Positions 40,844-50,297 of a DNA stretch of 64,000 nt are shown piece by piece. The notes under the pieces were generated by a model, which saw only the letters and a list, made by a program, of their open reading frames with translations, was not told the origin of the DNA and made no database searches. Numbering within the stretch: position 1 is the first letter of the stretch; each line of letters starts with the position of its first letter. The position numbers and the translations under genes are program-made. The stretch comes from Microbacterium sp. Root61 (GTDB taxonomy: Bacteria > Actinomycetota > Actinomycetes > Actinomycetales > Microbacteriaceae): assembly GCF_001427525.1 (NCBI RefSeq), contig NZ_LMGU01000001.1, positions 3,440,902 through 3,504,901 of the forward strand, in the 5' to 3' direction.

Positions 40844-41836
40844 TCAGGCGGACCGGCGGTCCGGCGGAGGCGGGGCATCCAGTGCTCGCACCATGCGCGA
40901 CAGGATCTCGCGCAGTTCGGTGCGGTCCGGATCGGCGAGGTCGGTCGTGAACTCGACGCCCTCCGGGATGTACGACAGCCCGTACATCGTCTCGCGGATG
41001 TCGCGACCGCCGATCGGCCATCGGGTGCGATCGGCGTCCTCGGCTTCGGAGCCCTGCGACCACTCGCCGAAGTGCTCGCGCATGGCGGCGATCGGCAGCT
41101 CCATCACGACATCGGTCGCGACCGCCCGAGGGGTCCACGAAGCCACCCCCAGGAAGAGCTCGTCCACCTCTTCAGGGGTCAACGCGCGGGGCTCGAAGAG
41201 CACGCGGGTGTGGAACACCTCGGTCAGCCGATCGACACGGAACGTACGCCAGTCCTCCCGGTCGAGGTCCCAGCACAGCAGATACCAGTGCCGGTCGGCG
41301 GGCGCGAGAGTGTGAGGTTCGACCCGGCGTGTGGTCGTGGCATCCGCTCCCGAGGTGTACGTGAAACGGATGCGCTCGTGATCGCGGATCGCCAGGGCGA
41401 GGTCGCCGAGGATGTCGGGGGACACCGCGCTGCCGCGCCCGACGCCGATCGGCTGAACCACTTCGGCCAGCGCGGCGACGCGTCGTCGCAAATCCGCGGG
41501 GAGTACCTGTTCGAGCTTCGCCAACGCAGTCAGCGTCGTCTCGGGGCCGCCCACGAGCCGCTGGGTCGCCGCGGCACGCAGCCCGATCGCCATCGCGACG
41601 GCTTCCTCATCGGTCAACAGCAGCGGAGGCACAGCGGTGCCCGCTTCGAGTCGATACCCTCCCGCGACCCCGGGTGCGGACTCGATGCGGTAGCCCAGCT
41701 CGCGCAGCCGCTCGACGTCGCGGCGCACCGTGCGCTCGGTGACCCCGAGTCGGACGGCGAGCTCCGAGCCGGGCCAGTGACGGTGCGTCTGCAGCAGGTT
41801 CAGGAGCGAGAGCGCACGCGTCGTGGTGTCGGACAT
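40844..41836 (-). CDS. YafY/PafC-type HTH-WYL transcriptional regulator
   Basis: A 330-residue regulator. An N-terminal HTH_11 (residues 5-60, SLLNLLQTHRHWPGSELAVRLGVTERTVRRDVERLRELGYRI) is followed by the conserved GVAGGYRL hinge, a WYL-type domain (about 135-230, with IRFTYTSGADATTTRRVEPHTLAPADRHWYLLCWD) and a WCX-like C-terminus. Such proteins act as sensors of nucleic-acid or other ligands. It is upstream of and divergent from the cyclase-like gene, 160 bases apart. A specific target is not identifiable. It is separated from the RAYGP gene by 40 bases on the same strand. Confidence 0.88.
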   Translation of the reverse strand: MSDTTTRALSLLNLLQTHRHWPGSELAVRLGVTERTVRRDVERLRELGYRIESAPGVAGGYRLEAGTAVPPLLLTDEEAVAMAIGLRAAATQRLVGGPETTLTALAKLEQVLPADLRRRVAALAEVVQPIGVGRGSAVSPDILGDLALAIRDHERIRFTYTSGADATTTRRVEPHTLAPADRHWYLLCWDLDREDWRTFRVDRLTEVFHTRVLFEPRALTPEEVDELFLGVASWTPRAVATDVVMELPIAAMREHFGEWSQGSEAEDADRTRWPIGGRDIRETMYGLSYIPEGVEFTTDLADPDRTELREILSRMVRALDAPPPPDRRSA

Positions 41837-41996: not shown

Positions 41997-44150
41997 GTGC
42001 CAGACGCAGACACGACGACGATCGAGCCTGCGCTCGTATCCTCGCCTCCGAAACGACCTCGCCGCGCCGGGCTCAGCATCCAATCGAAGCTGCTCATCAT
42101 GCTGCTGGGTGTGAGTCTGGTCTCCTCGCTGATCGTCGGAGCCATCGGCTTCGTGAGCGGTCGCCAATCGCTGCAGGCGGCGGCTATCGATCAGCTCACG
42201 ACGATCCGCGAGCTGCGAGCGTATGAGATCGAAAGCGTGATGGCCGGGATGCAGCGTGGCGTCACGCTCGATTCGCGCAACTTGAGCGCGCAGACCGCTT
42301 CCAAGGCGCTCAACGCCGGCTGGGACGAACTGCAGACGCGGGAGCTGACTCCCGACCAGGCAGCGGAGCTCGAGTCGTACTACGTCGACACCTTCATTCC
42401 TGATCTCGAGGCGCGCACCGGCGACGAGTACGGCGACACGGCCTTCATCCCCGAGTCCAACGCCGGCCGCTGGGCGCAGTACCACTTCACCGCGCAGATG
42501 TCGGACTTCGATACGGCGCTCGTGACCAACGACGGAAACGACGGCACGCCGTACTCGGCGGCTGCGGAGCAGTACGGCGACTACCTCACCCGTCTCGTGC
42601 AGACCGTGGGCTATGAAGACCTGTTGATGATGAATCTCGACGGCGACGTCGTCTACTCCGCGTACAAGGGCGTGGACCTCGGCACGAACCTCAACACGGG
42701 ACCGTACCGTGACAGCCTCCTCGCCGACGCGTATCGCGCGACGATCGCGACCAACTCGGTTAACTCCCTTCAGACCACCGACTTCGAACGGTGGACACCG
42801 TCGCTCGGGATGCCGACGCTCTGGGTCGTGTCGCCGGTCGGCAATGACTCCGGCATCACCGGCGTCATGGCCGCGCAGATCCCGATCGCCGCTATCAACA
42901 ACACGATGACCGGTTCGGATCAGTGGAAGCAGCAGGGCCTCGGCAACACGGGTGAGGTGTATCTCGCCGGTCGCGACGGACTGATGCGCAGCAGCTCCCG
43001 CGAGCTCATCCAGCATCCGGACACCTACGCGAAGAAGGTCGTCGCCGACGGGACCTCGCCCACCACCGCCGAGCGGATCATGGAGGTGAACGGCACCGTC
43101 CTGCTGCAGCCCGTGGACAAGTACTCGGCGCAGCAGGCGATCCTCGGCAAGACCGGAACGTCGATCTCGCAGGACTACATCGGCGGTGAGAGCATCACGG
43201 CCTACACGCCGCTCCAGATCGACGGCCTGGATTGGGTGGCCGTCGCCCGCATCGAATCAGGCGAGGCATTCGCCCCGGTGACCGACTTCACGCGCAACCT
43301 CGTGCTCTCGATGGTCGCCATCCTCCTCGGCGTGAGCCTGCTCTCCCTCGTGCTGGCGCAGGTGTTCACGCGGCCGGTCAAACAGCTCGTGGATGCGGTG
43401 CGGCGCGTCGCCGGGGGCGACCTCGCGGTGCAGGTGCCGCAGGGCTCACGGGACGAGTTCGGCGACCTGGGCGTGGCCTTCAACGACATGGCCGCCAGCC
43501 TGCGCCTGAAACAGGACCTCATCGACGATCAACGCGTCGAGAACGAGAAGCTGATGCACACCCTCATGCCGGAAACCGTTGCGGAGCGGTATCGGCAAGG
43601 CGAGGAGACCATCGCCGAAGACCACCAGAACGTGTCGGTCGTCTTCGCCGAGCTTGTCGGGTTCGACGAGTTCGCCGATGCGCTGACCAGCGACCAGGAG
43701 ATCGCGCAGCTCAACATCCTGATGCGCGGGTTCGACGAGGCCGCGACCAAGACCGGGGTGGAGAAGGTCCGCAGCCTCCGCGGCGGCTACCTCGCCAGCT
43801 CCGGACTCATCGTGCCGCGGGTGGACAACGTGCGGCGCGCGGTCGATTTCGCCCGCGAGATGCGCGCGGTCGTGCAGCGCTTCAACTCGCAGAACGGCAC
43901 ATCGCTCGACCTTCGCGCCGGCGTCGACACCGGCACGGTGACGAGCGGCCTGGTCGCGCGGACGAGTCTCGCCTACGACCTGTGGGGGGATGCCGTGAGC
44001 CTCGCCTACCGGGTCCGCTCGGTGACCGGCCAGCCGGGCATCTTCGTGAGCCAGTCGGTGCGTGACCGTATGCAGGACTCGGTCGTGTTCGCCGAAGCCG
44101 GCACGGTCGAGCTGCAGGGCAAGACCCAGACGGTGTGGCGGGTCGAGTAG
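41997..44150 (+). CDS. Membrane class III cyclase homologue, degenerate active site
   Basis: A 717-residue receptor-type protein. It has span 1 (about 27-50), a large extracellular dCache-like sensor (50-430), span 2 (432-457), HAMP (458-510), and a class III nucleotidyl cyclase domain (543-717). Aligned without gaps to mycobacterial Rv1625c, the first metal Asp is Glu552, the second metal Asp is Gly596 (GGY for GDAY) and the purine-selecting Lys is Arg592. The transition-state Asn is Ser668; Asp661 and Arg672 remain. Cyclase activity is therefore unlikely. The GTG start follows AAAGGGG. The gene is two bases from an MscS channel gene with a cNMP-binding domain, so it probably signals to that channel, perhaps by contact. 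The sensor ligand is unknown. Confidence 0.9.
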   Translation: MPDADTTTIEPALVSSPPKRPRRAGLSIQSKLLIMLLGVSLVSSLIVGAIGFVSGRQSLQAAAIDQLTTIRELRAYEIESVMAGMQRGVTLDSRNLSAQTASKALNAGWDELQTRELTPDQAAELESYYVDTFIPDLEARTGDEYGDTAFIPESNAGRWAQYHFTAQMSDFDTALVTNDGNDGTPYSAAAEQYGDYLTRLVQTVGYEDLLMMNLDGDVVYSAYKGVDLGTNLNTGPYRDSLLADAYRATIATNSVNSLQTTDFERWTPSLGMPTLWVVSPVGNDSGITGVMAAQIPIAAINNTMTGSDQWKQQGLGNTGEVYLAGRDGLMRSSSRELIQHPDTYAKKVVADGTSPTTAERIMEVNGTVLLQPVDKYSAQQAILGKTGTSISQDYIGGESITAYTPLQIDGLDWVAVARIESGEAFAPVTDFTRNLVLSMVAILLGVSLLSLVLAQVFTRPVKQLVDAVRRVAGGDLAVQVPQGSRDEFGDLGVAFNDMAASLRLKQDLIDDQRVENEKLMHTLMPETVAERYRQGEETIAEDHQNVSVVFAELVGFDEFADALTSDQEIAQLNILMRGFDEAATKTGVEKVRSLRGGYLASSGLIVPRVDNVRRAVDFAREMRAVVQRFNSQNGTSLDLRAGVDTGTVTSGLVARTSLAYDLWGDAVSLAYRVRSVTGQPGIFVSQSVRDRMQDSVVFAEAGTVELQGKTQTVWRVE

Positions 44151-44152
44151 CC

Positions 44153-45574
44153 ATGGAGATCCTGTCCGAAGCGTGGCTCTGGTGGGCGCTCGCGATCGCC
44201 ATCGGGGTTCCGATCCTCCTCGTCGTTCTGACTGAGCTGATCGGCGCGATGACCCGGCGGGGCAATCCCGCGGCCGGGCCACTGCGGCTGCTGCGCAACT
44301 GGGTGATCCCGTTCGCCGCGCTCTTCGCGCTGCTCGCCTTCGCCCTCCGCTCGGACGCCGACAACGTCTGGCCCCGCGTCGTGGCGACGATCCTCGGGTT
44401 CCTCGTCATCCTGCTGCTGCTCAGCGCCTTCAATGTGGCACTCTTCGCCAACGCGAAGGAGGGATCGTGGCGCAAGCGGATTCCTTCGATCTTCGTGGAG
44501 ATCGCCCGACTCGTCCTGGTGGTCGTCGGCCTGGCGCTGCTGTTCAGCTGGGTGTGGGAGGCGGATGTCGGTGGCCTGATCGCTGCGCTGGGCGTCACAT
44601 CGATCGTGATCGGCCTCGCCCTGCAGAACGCGGTCGGTGGCGTGATCTCCGGTCTGCTCCTCCTGTTCGAGCAGCCGTTCAAGATCGGCGACTGGCTGGA
44701 TATCGGCAGCGTGCAGGGGCGCGTGATCGAGGTGAACTGGCGCGCTGTGCACATCGACACGGGGTCGGGCATCCAGATCGTCCCGAACTCGACGCTGTCC
44801 GGCGCATCCTTCACCAACATGAGTCAGCCCGACGGTCCCTTCTTCACGTCGACGTCGCTCAAGTTCACGACCGACGATCCGCCGCACGAGGTCATCGCGC
44901 TCCTGATCGAGGTCGCCGATTCGCTGCCGATGCGGGCGAGGGGTGAGCGCGCGTCCGCGGACTACCTGGGCGCCGGCGCGTACTCGGTGACCCTGCCCGT
45001 GCAGGGCCCGGCCGTGGTGCAACAGGCGATGAGCCTGTATCTCGCGTGGCTCTGGTACGCCGCACGCCGGCGCGGGCTCGCGCTCGACGGAGACTCGACC
45101 GACCCGATCGCCGAGCCGGGGCGCCTCGAACGTGCCGTCGATGTGGTCGGGCCGACCCTCCATCTCGGCGACGGCGAGCGGGAGGCAGTGCTCGCGACCG
45201 CGCGCCTCGAGCGGTTCGGGATGGGCGAGGTCGTCCTGCGGTCCGGTGTGGTGCCCTCCGAGATCCTGTTCATCGCCGAAGGATCGGTCCGCGTCGCGGT
45301 CGAGGCCGGCGGTGGCCGGATCGACTTCGGCGTCGCGGAGGTGGGCGACTACATCGGTCAGACGGCCCTGACGCGTGAGCCGACGCTCACCGTGGCGGTC
45401 GCCGCGACGGTCACGACCGTGCTCATCGTGCCGTTGGAGACGATTGACGCCCTCGTGCGCGCACGCCCGCTGCTCGCCCGCGAGATCGGCGAGTCGATCG
45501 AGTTGAAGCGCAAGCTCGCTGCCGAGGCGCTCGCCGCGGCAGGGATCGTGCGCGGCTCGCTCGGCGGCGGCTGA
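44153..45574 (+). CDS. MscS-type channel with a degenerate cyclic-nucleotide-binding domain
   Basis: A 473-residue protein of the bCNG type. Three to four N-terminal spans are followed by the MscS pore region (about 135-190, LGVTSIVIGLALQNAVGGVISGLLLLFEQPFKIGDWLDIG) and beta/alpha-beta MscS domains (190-300). A CNB domain follows (about 330-450, ERFGMGEVVLRSGVVPSEILFIAEGSVRVAV). In the phosphate-binding cassette the essential Glu (CAP Glu72) is Gln403, and the Arg (CAP Arg82) is Thr413 at the same ten-residue spacing, so cNMP binding is doubtful. It is co-transcribed with the cyclase homologue. It probably gates ion or osmolyte flow in response to the partner or tension. The start chosen gives MEILSEAWLW. 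Confidence 0.92.
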   Translation: MEILSEAWLWWALAIAIGVPILLVVLTELIGAMTRRGNPAAGPLRLLRNWVIPFAALFALLAFALRSDADNVWPRVVATILGFLVILLLLSAFNVALFANAKEGSWRKRIPSIFVEIARLVLVVVGLALLFSWVWEADVGGLIAALGVTSIVIGLALQNAVGGVISGLLLLFEQPFKIGDWLDIGSVQGRVIEVNWRAVHIDTGSGIQIVPNSTLSGASFTNMSQPDGPFFTSTSLKFTTDDPPHEVIALLIEVADSLPMRARGERASADYLGAGAYSVTLPVQGPAVVQQAMSLYLAWLWYAARRRGLALDGDSTDPIAEPGRLERAVDVVGPTLHLGDGEREAVLATARLERFGMGEVVLRSGVVPSEILFIAEGSVRVAVEAGGGRIDFGVAEVGDYIGQTALTREPTLTVAVAATVTTVLIVPLETIDALVRARPLLAREIGESIELKRKLAAEALAAAGIVRGSLGGG

Positions 45575-45940: not shown

Positions 45941-47524
45941 TCACTGCTCGTAGATGATGACGTGCACGTTGCCGGCCTGCTCGATGGTGATCGGCACCGT
46001 CGTCAGCGATTCGTCGCCGCGCCGATTCGGCATCTGCCAGCTGTAGCTGCGCAGCCCGTCCTCGAGTCGATCGGGGGCGACGTCGCCGTCGCTGATCGCT
46101 GCGCCGTCGTTGAAGTCGACACGCGTGAACGAGACGGTCCCGCTGTTGGCGAGCCTCGCATCCAGGTCGAGCTCGGTGCCGGGCCAGACCTCGATCGTGG
46201 TCGGCCCGGTGCCCTTGCGCAGCACGATGGCTCCCGTCGTGATGTTCTCATCGCTCAGGGGTGAGATCGAGATCGACGTGTCGCCGAACGGCTGGATGAA
46301 TCGCTGGTCCGCCGTGCTCACCGTCGACAGGGATGCGCCGGGCCACAGCAGCGTGCTGGTCGTCGTCGTCACGCCGGTGATCACACCCACGCCGAGGAAG
46401 AGGATGGTGACGAACGCGAGGAAGCCGCTGCGCCGACGGAGCAGGCCGACCACGACCATCCCGGTTGCGCAGACGATCGCCGCGGCCAGGAGCCCGGCCG
46501 TCGCGGCGCTCACGACCCCGGCGGGCTCCGCCACGACGAGCGTCGTCAGGGCGCCCGTGATCAGTGCTGTTCCGACGATGGCGAGGACGGCCACAGCACT
46601 GGCCCGCGGTTTGGTCGCGCGTCGTACGCGACGGCGCTCGGCCGACTCCGCGGCGAAGGCGGCGCTGGCTGTCTCGCGTTCACGGCGGGACTGCTCGCGT
46701 GCCGCGGCATCCGCATCCGCCTGCTGGCGACGCCACGCCTCGTGCTCCACCCGCCATGCCTCGTGCCGGACCCGCCAGGCCGCGAGCTCGTCGGCCGAGG
46801 CGTCCGTGGGAGCGGCCACGGGCGCGGACGGCTCGGCCACCGGCAGCGGTGCAGCGACCGGCACGGATTCGGCGACCCAGGCAGCCGCGGGGCCCGCTTC
46901 GGTGTCGGGGAACGGCCCCGGGGCGGCGGGGTCCGCGGAAGCCGTCTGCGGATCCAACACAGTCCCGCCCCGGGGGGTCTTGGCGGCGCGCACCACGAGC
47001 CACACGACGAGGCCGATCGCGCCGAGCACGGCCAGCACCGTGAACAAGGTGTTGAGGACCGCGATCGGCCCGGACACCGCCCATCCCATCGTGCTCCACG
47101 CACCGTCGCCCATGTATTGGAACGGCCATCCGAGTACCGCCCACATCCAGGGCACGACCGGCACGAAGCTGACGAGGGCCATGATCGCGATCGCGACGAG
47201 CGACGGCTCGAACACGCCGCGGCCGAGCTGCTGCAGCGGGATCCGGCCGTTCAGGTCCGGCAGCAGTGCCCAGGCGATCGCGTAGATCAGCAGTGCGGGG
47301 AAGCCGATGAGGGCCGCCACCACGAAGATGCCCCGCACGATGAGGGGGTCGATTCCGATGCGCGCGGCGATCCCGCTGCACACACCGCCGAGCCAGCCGC
47401 GGGTGCGGGGGATGCCCAGGCTCCGGATCCACGCGAAGAAGCGGTTCTCGGGGTGCGGCATCCCCGCCGGCGCCGAGGGCGGCGGACCGGGGTCGGTGAG
47501 AAACGGGGACGTCGTATCGGTCAT
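45941..47524 (-). CDS. PspC domain membrane protein with C-terminal toastrack-like domain
   Basis: A 527-residue protein. The PspC domain is at about residues 28-90 (LGIPRTRGWLGGVCSGIAARIGIDPLIVRGIFVVAALIG), followed by spans near 100-190 and an Ala/Pro-rich linker with an Arg/Glu-rich coiled coil (EAWRVEHEAWRRQQADADAAAREQ). Three further spans (330-395) lead to an extracellular beta-rich tail (FIQPFGDTSISISPLSDENITTGAIVLRKG...) of LiaF/toastrack type. The ATG at 47524 is the sensible start, although the frame stays open far upstream. It is divergent from a PspC-histidine kinase gene and should act as membrane-damage sensor or modulator of it. The domain order is seen; the signalling role is inferred. 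Confidence 0.88.
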   Translation of the reverse strand: MTDTTSPFLTDPGPPPSAPAGMPHPENRFFAWIRSLGIPRTRGWLGGVCSGIAARIGIDPLIVRGIFVVAALIGFPALLIYAIAWALLPDLNGRIPLQQLGRGVFEPSLVAIAIMALVSFVPVVPWMWAVLGWPFQYMGDGAWSTMGWAVSGPIAVLNTLFTVLAVLGAIGLVVWLVVRAAKTPRGGTVLDPQTASADPAAPGPFPDTEAGPAAAWVAESVPVAAPLPVAEPSAPVAAPTDASADELAAWRVRHEAWRVEHEAWRRQQADADAAAREQSRRERETASAAFAAESAERRRVRRATKPRASAVAVLAIVGTALITGALTTLVVAEPAGVVSAATAGLLAAAIVCATGMVVVGLLRRRSGFLAFVTILFLGVGVITGVTTTTSTLLWPGASLSTVSTADQRFIQPFGDTSISISPLSDENITTGAIVLRKGTGPTTIEVWPGTELDLDARLANSGTVSFTRVDFNDGAAISDGDVAPDRLEDGLRSYSWQMPNRRGDESLTTVPITIEQAGNVHVIIYEQ

Positions 47525-47561
47525 GGATCCAGCCTGGCGGCGCCGCTCGAGCGTCGCTATG

Positions 47562-47589
47562 GGGTGAAACCCTGATCCGTCCCTGATCC
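47562..47589. promoter_or_regulatory. Candidate response-regulator site between divergent PspC genes
   Basis: The 114-base divergent gap contains GGGT-GAA-ACCC (47562-47572) running into two direct copies of CCTGATCC (47571-47578 and 47582-47589), 11 bases apart, one helical turn. Such phased repeats suit a dimeric LuxR-type regulator, and the one encoded at 48852 is the obvious candidate. Confidence 0.5.
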
Positions 47590-47638
47590 TGAGCCCCGTC
47601 CCCCCTGGTCGGGGGAGCGAGGGTGATTGGATGTGAGC

Positions 47639-48859
47639 ATGACGACCACCGCCGACGCCGTAGCCGTCGCGCCCGATGCCGAGCGGATGCCGCGCCCCGC
47701 GCTGCGGCGTCCGCGTGCGGTGCTCGTCACCGGCGTGGCGGAGGGGCTGGCCGCGCACCTGCGCTGGTCGCGGCCCGCGGTGCGCGCCCTCTTCGTCGTG
47801 CTGAGCTTCTTCTGGGGCGCGGGCGTCCTGCTCTACCTCTGGTTCTGGGCGCTGATGCCGGTCGTCGAGTCCGACCCGACCGTCGCCGTCGACCAGCCGA
47901 CCACCCATCGCGCGCCCGTCGCCTGGATTCTCGCCACGGTCGCCGCGATCAGCGCCGTGGTCATGTTCGGAGCGATCGGAATCGACAGCGGCGATTCGCC
48001 GTCGTGGCTCGCCGCGAACGTCGTCACGGTCTCGTGCGCCGTCGGCGCCGGCCTGTGGGCCACGCTCATCGACCGGCGTGATCCCTCGCGGGGGCTGCGG
48101 CACGAGCGGGCGATCCGCGTCGTCGTGACCATCGTCCTGGCGGTGGTCCTCCTGGCCCTGTTGACGAGCTTCCGCGGCGCCCCCTGGCTGGCCTTCTTCG
48201 CCGCCATCTTCACCCTGCTCGGCATCGCGGCCGTCTACTCCTCCACCTTGATCGACAAGCTGCGCGACCTGTCGCGCGAGCGGGTGCGCCGCATCCGCGA
48301 GGAGCAGCGCAGCGAGATGGCCGCCCATCTGCACGACTCCGTGCTGCAGACGCTCGCGCTCATCCAGAACCGTGCCGGGGCGTCGAGCGAGGTCGCCCGC
48401 CTCGCCCGCGCGCAGGAGCGCGAACTGCGCAGCTGGCTCTTCGACGGCGACACTCCCGCCGACAGCGACCTGGCCACCGACCTCCGTGACTACGCGGCCG
48501 CCCTCGAGCTGGACTATCCCGTGCACATCGAGGTCGTCTCGGCCGGCACCTCCACCGAGCGGGCGAGCGGCGAGGTGGCCGCAGCCGCCCGCGAGGCGAT
48601 GCTCAACGCCTCCCGCCATGCCGGCGGCGAGGTATCCGTGTACATCGAAGGCGCCGGTGCCACGGTCGATGTATACGTGCGCGATCGGGGTCCGGGCTTC
48701 GATCTCGCCGAGGTGCCGGGCGACCGACTCGGGGTGCGGCAGTCGATCATCGGACGGATGCGGCGGGTCGGCGGGTCGGCGACGGTCGGCCCCGGCGTGG
48801 GCGGCGCCGGCACGCAGGTCCACCTGCGATTCGAGCGAGCGGACGGCGCACATGGGTGA
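47639..48859 (+). CDS. PspC-domain sensor histidine kinase
   Basis: A 406-residue kinase. An N-terminal PspC domain (residues 25-78, ALRRPRAVLVTGVAEGLAAHLRWSRPAVRALFVVLSFFWGAG) lies before five further spans to about residue 205. The HisKA_3 dimerisation helix has the phospho-acceptor His232 (AAHLHDSVLQTLALIQN). The HATPase domain follows, with EAMLNASRHAGG (N-box) and VRDRGPGFDLAEV (G1). It is a LiaS/NarX-class kinase that senses envelope stress through PspC rather than a loop. The start is uncertain within 12 bases (GTG 47633 or ATG 47639). It overlaps the response-regulator gene by eight bases and forms a two-component system with it. Confidence 0.92.
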   Translation: MTTTADAVAVAPDAERMPRPALRRPRAVLVTGVAEGLAAHLRWSRPAVRALFVVLSFFWGAGVLLYLWFWALMPVVESDPTVAVDQPTTHRAPVAWILATVAAISAVVMFGAIGIDSGDSPSWLAANVVTVSCAVGAGLWATLIDRRDPSRGLRHERAIRVVVTIVLAVVLLALLTSFRGAPWLAFFAAIFTLLGIAAVYSSTLIDKLRDLSRERVRRIREEQRSEMAAHLHDSVLQTLALIQNRAGASSEVARLARAQERELRSWLFDGDTPADSDLATDLRDYAAALELDYPVHIEVVSAGTSTERASGEVAAAAREAMLNASRHAGGEVSVYIEGAGATVDVYVRDRGPGFDLAEVPGDRLGVRQSIIGRMRRVGGSATVGPGVGGAGTQVHLRFERADGAHG

Positions 48860-49517
48860 TCTGGTGCGCGTGGTGATCGTCGACGATCACTCCATCTTCC
48901 GCTCCGGCCTGCGCGCCGACCTGGATGCGTCGGTGCAGGTCGTCGCGGAGGCGGAGGACGTGGCATCCGCCGTCCGCATGATCGAGGAGCATCAGCCCGA
49001 CGTCGTGCTGCTGGATGTGCATCTTCCGGGTGCGGAGGGCGCCGCCCCCACGGGAGGCGAGGCCGTACTCCGGGCCACGGGAGCCCGCGCGCCGCAGACC
49101 CGCTTCCTCGCGCTCAGCGTCTCGGATGCCGCAGAAGACGTCGTGCGCGTCATCCGCGCCGGGGCGCGCGGCTACATCACGAAGGGCTCCTCTGGTGCGG
49201 ACGTGAGCCGCGCCGTGCACGCGGTCGCCGGCGGCGATGCCGTGTTCTCGCCGCGGCTGGCGGGCTTCGTGCTCGATGCCTTCGGCGCGGTCGCGGGGGA
49301 GACGGCCGTCGCCACCGACGAGCTGGACCGCCTGTCGGCGCGCGAGCAGGAGGTCATGCGGCTGATCGCCCGCGGATACTCCTACAAGGAGGTGGCCGCC
49401 GATCTCTTCATCTCGATCAAGACCGTTGAGACGCACGTGTCGGCGGTGCTGCGCAAGCTTCAGCTGTCCTCCCGCCACGAGCTCACCGCCTGGGCCACCG
49501 CGCGGCGGCTGCTGTAG
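48852..49517 (+). CDS. NarL/LuxR-type response regulator
   Basis: A 221-residue response regulator. The receiver domain has the acidic pocket Asp11-Asp12, phospho-acceptor Asp55 (VVLLDVHLPG), a Ser/Thr switch in LALSVSDAAED and the Lys of YITKGSSG. It contains a small insertion after the Asp55 loop (AEGAAPTGGEAV), seen in this actinobacterial subgroup. The C-terminal LuxR HTH is LSAREQEVMRLIARGYSYKEVAADLFISIKTVETHVSAVLRKL. It is co-translated with the PspC kinase (eight-base overlap). It should control the divergent PspC operon and its own, through the phased repeats in their shared gap. Confidence 0.94.
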   Translation: MGDLVRVVIVDDHSIFRSGLRADLDASVQVVAEAEDVASAVRMIEEHQPDVVLLDVHLPGAEGAAPTGGEAVLRATGARAPQTRFLALSVSDAAEDVVRVIRAGARGYITKGSSGADVSRAVHAVAGGDAVFSPRLAGFVLDAFGAVAGETAVATDELDRLSAREQEVMRLIARGYSYKEVAADLFISIKTVETHVSAVLRKLQLSSRHELTAWATARRLL

Positions 49518-49643: not shown

Positions 49644-50297
49644 ATGAGCGACGACCAGACGCAGCCGATGACTCCCCAGACCGCGCCGGTCGAGCCGCCC
49701 AAGTCCAAAGGCATCGGTCTCGCGGCCATCATCTGGACCGGTGTCGGTGTGGTTCTGCTGTCGTTCGTCGCCTCCTTCCTCGGTGCCTCGCTGGCGCGGT
49801 CCATGGACGAGGCCGAACCTGTAGCGTCCGTCGCGTCGACGCCCACGCCTTCGGCGGAGATCGACTACGAAGCCGCCCTGGAGGAGATCCTGCCGGCGGG
49901 GGCCGCGGTGCGGGCGGGCTCGGGCGTTCCTGAAGCGGGCAAGGGCTACGCCGGAGAGGTGTACATCGACATCTCGACGAGCGACGTGTACGTCTTCCGG
50001 GACAGCGAGTGGGTGCTCGCCGGCAACATCCGCCAGTCCGCGGCCGCCAACCTCACCGGGGCGACCGGTGAGGCCGGGGCCGCAGGTGCTCCGGGTGCGT
50101 CGGGTGCTCCGGGTGCCTCAGGTGCACCGGGCGAGGCGGGCACGCAGCTGAGCCTCGGCGTCGGAGCGCCGGAGTCGGAGACCTGCCAATCGGACGGCGA
50201 TGTCTACATCGACACGACGCTGCTGCAGTTCTACGAATGCACCGCGGGCGAGTGGACGCTGTTCGGGCCGACGCCCACACCGACCCCCGAGCCCTGA
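49644..50297 (+). CDS. Membrane-anchored protein with a collagen-like segment
   Basis: A 217-residue protein. A hydrophilic Pro-rich start is followed by one span (about 24-50), then an extracellular part. Residues 139-166 are about nine Gly-X-Y triplets (GATGEAGAAGAPGAS...). Each flank carries a similar ~28-residue unit: AGEVYIDISTSDVYVFRDSEWVLAG before and DGDVYIDTTLLQFYECTAGEWTLFG after. The duplicated units look like small beta modules that cap or trimerise the collagen-like rod. The ATG has a GAGAGG site. It is not in an operon with the kinase pair. The function is unknown; surface display or adhesion is plausible. Confidence 0.8.
   Translation: MSDDQTQPMTPQTAPVEPPKSKGIGLAAIIWTGVGVVLLSFVASFLGASLARSMDEAEPVASVASTPTPSAEIDYEAALEEILPAGAAVRAGSGVPEAGKGYAGEVYIDISTSDVYVFRDSEWVLAGNIRQSAAANLTGATGEAGAAGAPGASGAPGASGAPGEAGTQLSLGVGAPESETCQSDGDVYIDTTLLQFYECTAGEWTLFGPTPTPTPEP

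Follow-up and report, generated by a model that had tools for sequence, protein, structure and literature searches.

What can a receptor cyclase that has lost its catalytic residues convey to a channel whose nucleotide-binding domain has lost its own? The question is posed by two genes in a 64,000-nucleotide stretch of the soil bacterium Microbacterium sp. Root61 (the window, C1:3440902-3504901 in the 4.02-Mb genome). In the open reading frames of the window, a receptor gene and an MscS-type channel gene follow each other on the same strand with a gap of two bases (41997-44150 then 44153-45574), the spacing given by an earlier inspection of the letters, here called the original prediction. It had proposed that both partners lost their nucleotide chemistry while keeping their folds and that the signal now passes by direct contact or by another ligand; as a whole, this interpretation is partly supported. 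On balance, and with some reserve, we think it probable that the pair is a fixed receptor-channel module in which the pseudo-cyclase acts on the channel by protein contact. The genes and their domains, including a cyclic nucleotide-binding (CNB) fold, transmembrane (TM) helices and residues for cyclic nucleoside monophosphate (cNMP), were placed with Pfam and with AlphaFold2 (AF2) models scored by the predicted local distance difference test (pLDDT):

41997..44150, + strand, dCache-HAMP-pseudo-cyclase receptor gene, 717 amino acids, GTG start (AF2 mean pLDDT 83.7)
42171..43286, + strand, predicted extracellular dCache sensor region, about residues 59-430 (AF2 pLDDT mostly 87-97)
43353..43505, + strand, HAMP domain, residues 453-503 (Pfam 2.2e-16, 60.4 bits)
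43614..44129, + strand, class III cyclase-fold domain, residues 540-711, without metal Asp and purine Lys (Pfam Guanylate_cyc 3.6e-30)
44153..45574, + strand, MscS-type channel gene with C-terminal CNB-fold domain, 473 amino acids, ATG start (AF2 mean pLDDT 81.0)
44171..44671, + strand, five predicted TM helices of the channel (7-36, 41-66, 72-98, 112-135, pore 139-173; AF2 secondary structure)
44630..44824, + strand, MscS beta domain, residues 160-224 (Pfam PF00924, MS_channel_2nd, 1.2e-19, 70.6 bits)
45170..45538, + strand, CNB-fold domain, residues 340-462, without the cNMP Glu and Arg (Pfam cNMP_binding 5.5e-9)

The class III cyclase homology fold was present in the receptor, and the MscS pore helix, the beta domain and a C-terminal CNB fold were present in the channel; the models predict that the cyclase-fold and CNB domains have retained their folds. 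The dCache_1 Pfam match was weak (residues 205-359, E 2e-9, 37.8 bits against a 45-bit cut-off), and the HAMP domain was placed after a TM helix, 426-472 in the AF2 model. The channel matched PF21088 at 22.7 bits, slightly below the cut-off of 23.1, and the confidence of its model was low (50-57) over residues 141-170.

Residues were tallied in 113 cyclases and 112 channels of the pair family, the window and eight duplicates included; eight genomes occur in two collections, and after removal (105 cyclase rows) the picture was unchanged. L064, with no cyclase on its contig, and the cut channels of L055 and L131 were uncountable. L128, which has broken frames, and the triple operons L154-L156 stood outside the tallies, and the frameshifted L126 was kept in them. 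The roles of the numbered positions we take to be those of the textbook residue names:

43650..43652, + strand, Glu552, place of the first metal Asp (E69, D44 of 113)
43770..43772, + strand, Arg592, place of the purine-specifying Lys (R112, H1 of 113; Lys 0)
43782..43784, + strand, Gly596, place of the second metal Asp (G64, E18, N13, Q10, S4, T2, A1, R1 of 113; Asp 0)
43977..44012, + strand, Asp661-Arg672 stretch (Asp661 113/113; 668 N65, S44, T3, D1; 672 R96, Q14, A2, K1)
45359..45361, + strand, Gln403, place of the CNB Glu (Q73, L22, H12, S2, V2, I1 of 112; Glu 0)
45374..45385, + strand, Arg408-Thr411, Thr411 being the canonical phosphate Arg place in the SthK alignment (Arg408 107/112)

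In the window, Ser occupies the place of the transition-state Asn at 668, and Asp661 and Arg672 are retained. These cyclase residues (Glu552, Arg592, Gly596, Asp661, Ser668 and Arg672), and Gln403 in place of the CNB Glu, are as originally numbered. Two of the proposed losses required qualification. Both metal Asp had been called lost: the second is lost family-wide, whereas Glu552 characterizes a single sub-clade, and 42/95 non-redundant members have Asp there. The CNB Arg is gone from the window, its place being Thr411 by the SthK alignment and not Thr413; the loss itself stands because the window is without any Arg from 409 to 432. Arg was found at 411 or 413 in 0/112 channels, at 410 in 40/112, at 412 in 4/112 and at 414 in 17/112, and the CNB loop carries a family-specific motif around G-Q-T-A-L-T-R-E, which includes Arg408. 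As the residue pattern is common to the whole sampled family, it is not due to chance. Loss of nucleotide chemistry in both partners with predicted folds retained thus holds family-wide in the sample, where purifying selection is also present. The cyclase is presumably inactive in catalysis, and the CNB domain presumably does not bind cNMP.

The two genes remain together across many genomic backgrounds. A channel search of 118 genomes (its own included) gave matches above 100 bits in 22, and a cyclase lay directly upstream of the channel in 23/23 loci taken from those 22 genomes. When the cyclase was searched for first, a class sample of 394 genomes yielded 34 full-length matches of at least 681 bits, the next best reaching 163, and the channel adjoined the cyclase in 30/30 loci retrieved for those 34. 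PF00211 matched in 40 of 119 Microbacterium genomes; the count rests on the 37 matches above 100 bits (19 weaker ones, at or below 67 bits, lie outside it), and all 30 of their retrieved loci were of the pair family with the channel adjoining, one being cut by a contig end. The gene junction measured -8 to +14 bases in 113 of the 116 loci with both genes, the exceptions being L126, owing to its frameshift, and L154 and L156, where the downstream one of two cyclases was taken. Relatives in a named-genome scan, from which the best 80 of 464 were used as loci, were Microbacteriaceae, plus titles of Ruaniaceae, Nocardioidaceae and Mycobacteriaceae. Matches were present in 16/396 genomes of a phylum sample, three of them of a triple type. 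The window's own genome carries a second pair, 46% identical (L033, C1:3325200-3328738), which still has the first metal Asp as well as the Asn and is without the second Asp, the Lys and the CNB Glu. The losses in both partners, together with co-retention of the pair in many relatives, suggest control of the channel by the sensor otherwise than via the usual messenger.

A gene fusion was considered for L126 (Leifsonia aquatica; L126:2712-6416), where cyclase and channel form a single 1234-amino-acid frame, and was rejected in favour of a frameshift because the cyclase end lies in another frame relative to L130. A contig titled Planococcus sp. (L056, JASDDH010000011.1) carries a pair ∼80% identical to that of the window; the record may be mislabelled, or the contig may have come from elsewhere.

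The triple type was found in other families of the phylum (L154-L156, in genomes G147, G200 and G420), where the channel lies between two dCache-HAMP cyclases:

L155:4953-10833, example of a triple operon

The first metal Asp was absent from all six of these cyclases, and the CNB Glu from 3/3 channels. Upstream cyclases keep the Lys and Asp661 (3/3 each) and, in L155 and L156 only, the second Asp; downstream cyclases are without the Lys and Asp661, that of L155 having Asp at the second metal place. Upstream and downstream cyclases clustered with a support of 84 by the Shimodaira-Hasegawa-like approximate likelihood ratio test (SH-aLRT), and were placed weakly (76), on long branches, beside the pair family.

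Purifying selection on both the cyclase-fold and CNB domains was evident from the ratio of nonsynonymous to synonymous substitution rates (dN/dS) in 26 close independent pairs; the all-pairs estimate was discarded because distant pairs were saturated. The lowest value, 0.051, was that of the channel pore and beta domain. Branch rates of 89 pairs (170 branches) were compared with the tree kept fixed; L126 and the incomplete L160, L094 and L080 were left out (L126 was likewise excluded from the dN/dS and distance analyses). Branch lengths of the cyclase domain followed those of the partner's CNB domain (r 0.80, partial 0.36, bootstrap 0.22 to 0.49) and of its own HAMP domain (r 0.69, partial 0.20), and the partials with its own dCache region beyond the shared part were 0.00 and 0.06. 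With 75 columns per domain the cyclase partials were 0.28 for CNB, 0.19 for HAMP, 0.18 for alpha/beta, 0.17 for TM1-4 and 0.16 for the pore. CNB was highest on end branches (0.45), and the distance-based partials were 0.45 for CNB, 0.37 for HAMP, 0.37 for TM1-4 and 0.14 for dCache. This coupling of rates between the cyclase-fold and CNB domains, calculated from the sequences, fits contact or a shared task.

Related domains outside the pair served as controls. From 45 weaker places of the class search, 20 loci provided 21 cyclase domains, with no such channel within the retrieved stretches; the second metal Asp was kept in 21/21, the first in 20/21 (one frame being cut there), the Lys in 20/21 and the Asn in 20/21. 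In a tree with these control cyclases, built by a quick method, the pair family formed one clade (SH-aLRT 99). Among ten MscS-CNB channels that are carried on plasmids and have no matching cyclase in their vicinity, 8 kept the Glu and 1 the Arg; by this comparison of sequences, of the CNB losses the Glu loss alone looks tied to the pair. Co-variation of the losses, on which the original prediction was to be judged, gave no signal: on a tree of 95 non-redundant rows (near-copies removed, L126 excluded), independent-pair tests detected no joint change of 552, 668 and 672 with CNB 403. Letter changes on this tree numbered 1 at the first metal position, 18 at 668, 6 at 672 and 14 at CNB 403, from which the decisive losses appear old and fixed while the remaining residues drift. 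The key losses were fixed at the base of the family and are shared by all members, which accounts for the lack of a co-variation signal. No intact ancestral cyclase-channel pair was found among the phylum matches listed (the 396-genome sample, four candidates scored per genome); of these matches, the ones that extended across the CNB part all belonged to the pair family or to the related triple operons, apart from one fragment at the end of a contig.

Messenger sources in the genome were assessed by domain searches. PF00211 matched the two pair cyclases only, and a PF01295 search of the genome gave no match. The four PF00027 matches were the two channels and places in frames of 543 and 573 amino acids, which keep the motif Glu. 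These searches point to no obvious messenger maker for the pair in this genome. By eye, the first of the two non-channel PF00027 frames seems fused to a reductase-like part.

For the working of the pair we infer a ligand, a direction of signalling, a physical contact and an effect on gating. A small molecule would be sensed by the extracellular dCache domain, and the TM helices and HAMP domain would relay a conformational change to the cytoplasmic cyclase-fold domain, which, no longer making cyclic nucleotide, would serve as a non-catalytic output module. By contact, this module would alter the MscS-type channel in its open probability or its tension threshold, most likely at the channel's CNB-fold domain, where cNMP would no longer be needed. 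Very probably the pair is not a classical cNMP relay, the place of which has most likely been taken by direct coupling. A more detailed version seems plausible to us, if somewhat short of probable: a two-protein ligand-gated channel, in which dCache via HAMP drives docking of the dead cyclase on the dead CNB domain, an ancestral relay having become a direct-contact complex, with a two-receptor form elsewhere in the phylum. If true, this would show clearly, in Microbacteriaceae, Mycobacteriaceae and neighbours, how a relay by soluble messenger can become a wired one, and an MscS-type channel would have gained an outside chemical input. The annotations 'adenylate cyclase' and 'cNMP-binding protein' of these genes are probably wrong.

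Several points weigh against the preferred reading of the pair. A dimeric receptor would face a channel that is heptameric if it is built like MscS, a symmetry mismatch. Coupling of the cyclase to TM1-4 was nearly equal to that with CNB (r 0.76, partial 0.30), inner branches were led by TM1-4 (0.39 versus 0.30 for CNB), and the distance-based HAMP partial (0.37) is close to that of CNB (0.45); rates can also become coupled through a relaxation common to both domains, or through a common function without contact. The contrast between intact and dead cyclases amounts to one event because the pair family sits on one tree split, and the CNB Arg loss is not pair-specific because the Arg is absent in 9/10 of the cyclase-less plasmid channels. 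Arg at 410, 412 or 414 leaves the loop alignment doubtful for those members, though not for the window. The genome also holds one match to PF01928, the CYTH domain, a fold carried by class IV cyclases. Some catalytic residues persist, Asp661 in 113/113 and Arg672 in 96/113, and together with Arg592 (112/113) these also speak for a rather unlikely alternative, that the dead domains still bind nucleotides or another small ligand, the pseudo-cyclase by sensing ATP/GTP or serving as an allosteric site, the CNB domain after re-tuning to a different ligand made elsewhere, the pair integrating outside and inside ligands. In keeping with this the CNB fold is predicted to be retained, and the pocket region is conserved and not eroded, given the family-specific loop motif with Arg408 in 107/112. 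However, Asp661 is also retained in the C1 domains of mammalian cyclases, which are poor in catalysis, a candidate ligand is lacking, and two separate ligands, though compatible with the cyclase-CNB rate coupling, do not predict it.

It is improbable that the channel is simply a valve gated by tension, or resembles bacterial cyclic nucleotide-gated (bCNG) channels, with the pseudo-cyclase acting elsewhere and the genes merely co-transcribed. The strong constraint on pore and beta domain (dN/dS 0.051), the existence of plasmid MscS-CNB channels with no such cyclase adjoining and the lack of a conserved wider gene context would suit such an arrangement, but linkage across many genomic backgrounds, the confinement of the listed CNB-reaching phylum matches to the pair family, triples and one contig-end fragment, and the rate coupling of cyclase and CNB argue against it. 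A classical relay appears very improbable; here the cNMP that gates the channel via the diverged CNB domain would be made by residual activity, Glu552 binding the metal, or by a heterodimer formed with an intact cyclase. Neither the second metal Asp nor the Lys occurs in any of the 113 cyclases, the genome offers no other PF00211 match as a partner, and the window's CNB domain is without Arg and Glu alike, although the first Asp (44/113), the Asn (65/113) and the Arg (96/113) are kept in part of the family, and EPAC-type CNB domains, which have Gln in place of the Glu, bind cyclic AMP (cAMP).

For the contact that we prefer, the nearest precedent in working principle may be the KCNH/EAG channels, in which a CNB-homology fold unresponsive to cNMP is contacted by a sensor domain; these differ in having an unrelated pore, and a PAS domain instead of a pseudo-cyclase. 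Pseudo-enzymes as signal adaptors are, to our knowledge, well known for kinases and little known for cyclases. The bCNG channels likewise combine an MscS core with a C-terminal CNB fold, but unlike them the window's channel lacks the CNB Glu and Arg and is fixed to a pseudo-cyclase receptor. Mammalian-like adenylyl cyclases of the Rv1625c type are among the closest solved catalytic domains in sequence and fold; here, in contrast, a dCache-HAMP sensor is joined to a domain that has lost catalytic residues, and the sampled non-pair cyclases keep the residues. Rv2435c and Rv2434c of Mycobacterium tuberculosis resemble the window pair in their consecutive locus tags and in the dCache domain of Rv2435c, and would belong to the same family, of which Mycolicibacterium komossense (L134) is a Mycobacteriaceae member. 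The original prediction knew of no description of such a system; a limited literature search likewise found no paper describing a pseudo-cyclase/MscS-CNB pair, but pieces of it, the Rv2435c dCache domain and Rv2434c, have been published. A dCache domain is reported for the Rv2435c adenylate cyclase (PMC4822843), Rv2435c is listed among cyclases (PMC3961136, PMC3938503), Rv2434c is a membrane protein assigned to cAMP signalling (PMC11205783), both are named in a 2004 survey (PMC2447327), and bCNG papers are among the references of PMC4560390; reference entries of PMC4886424 were used as well.

The following genes flank the pair:

window 40844-41836, divergent WYL/helix-turn-helix regulator, upstream of the pair
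window 45941-49517, PspC-domain gene, apparent PspC-type sensor kinase (by eye) and LuxR-type response regulator, beside the pair

Within flanks of a few kb, a WYL regulator lay near the pair in eight related loci, two of them duplicates. A conserved wider operon was considered and rejected: besides this regulator, no neighbour from the window recurred more than once in those flanks. A PspC match occurred in L117 only among the related stretches, and the PspC, kinase and LuxR-type genes are like an envelope-stress module. Further downstream, window 49644-50297 encodes a protein that, by eye, contains collagen-like G-A-x-G-A-x-G repeats together with a hydrophobic stretch.

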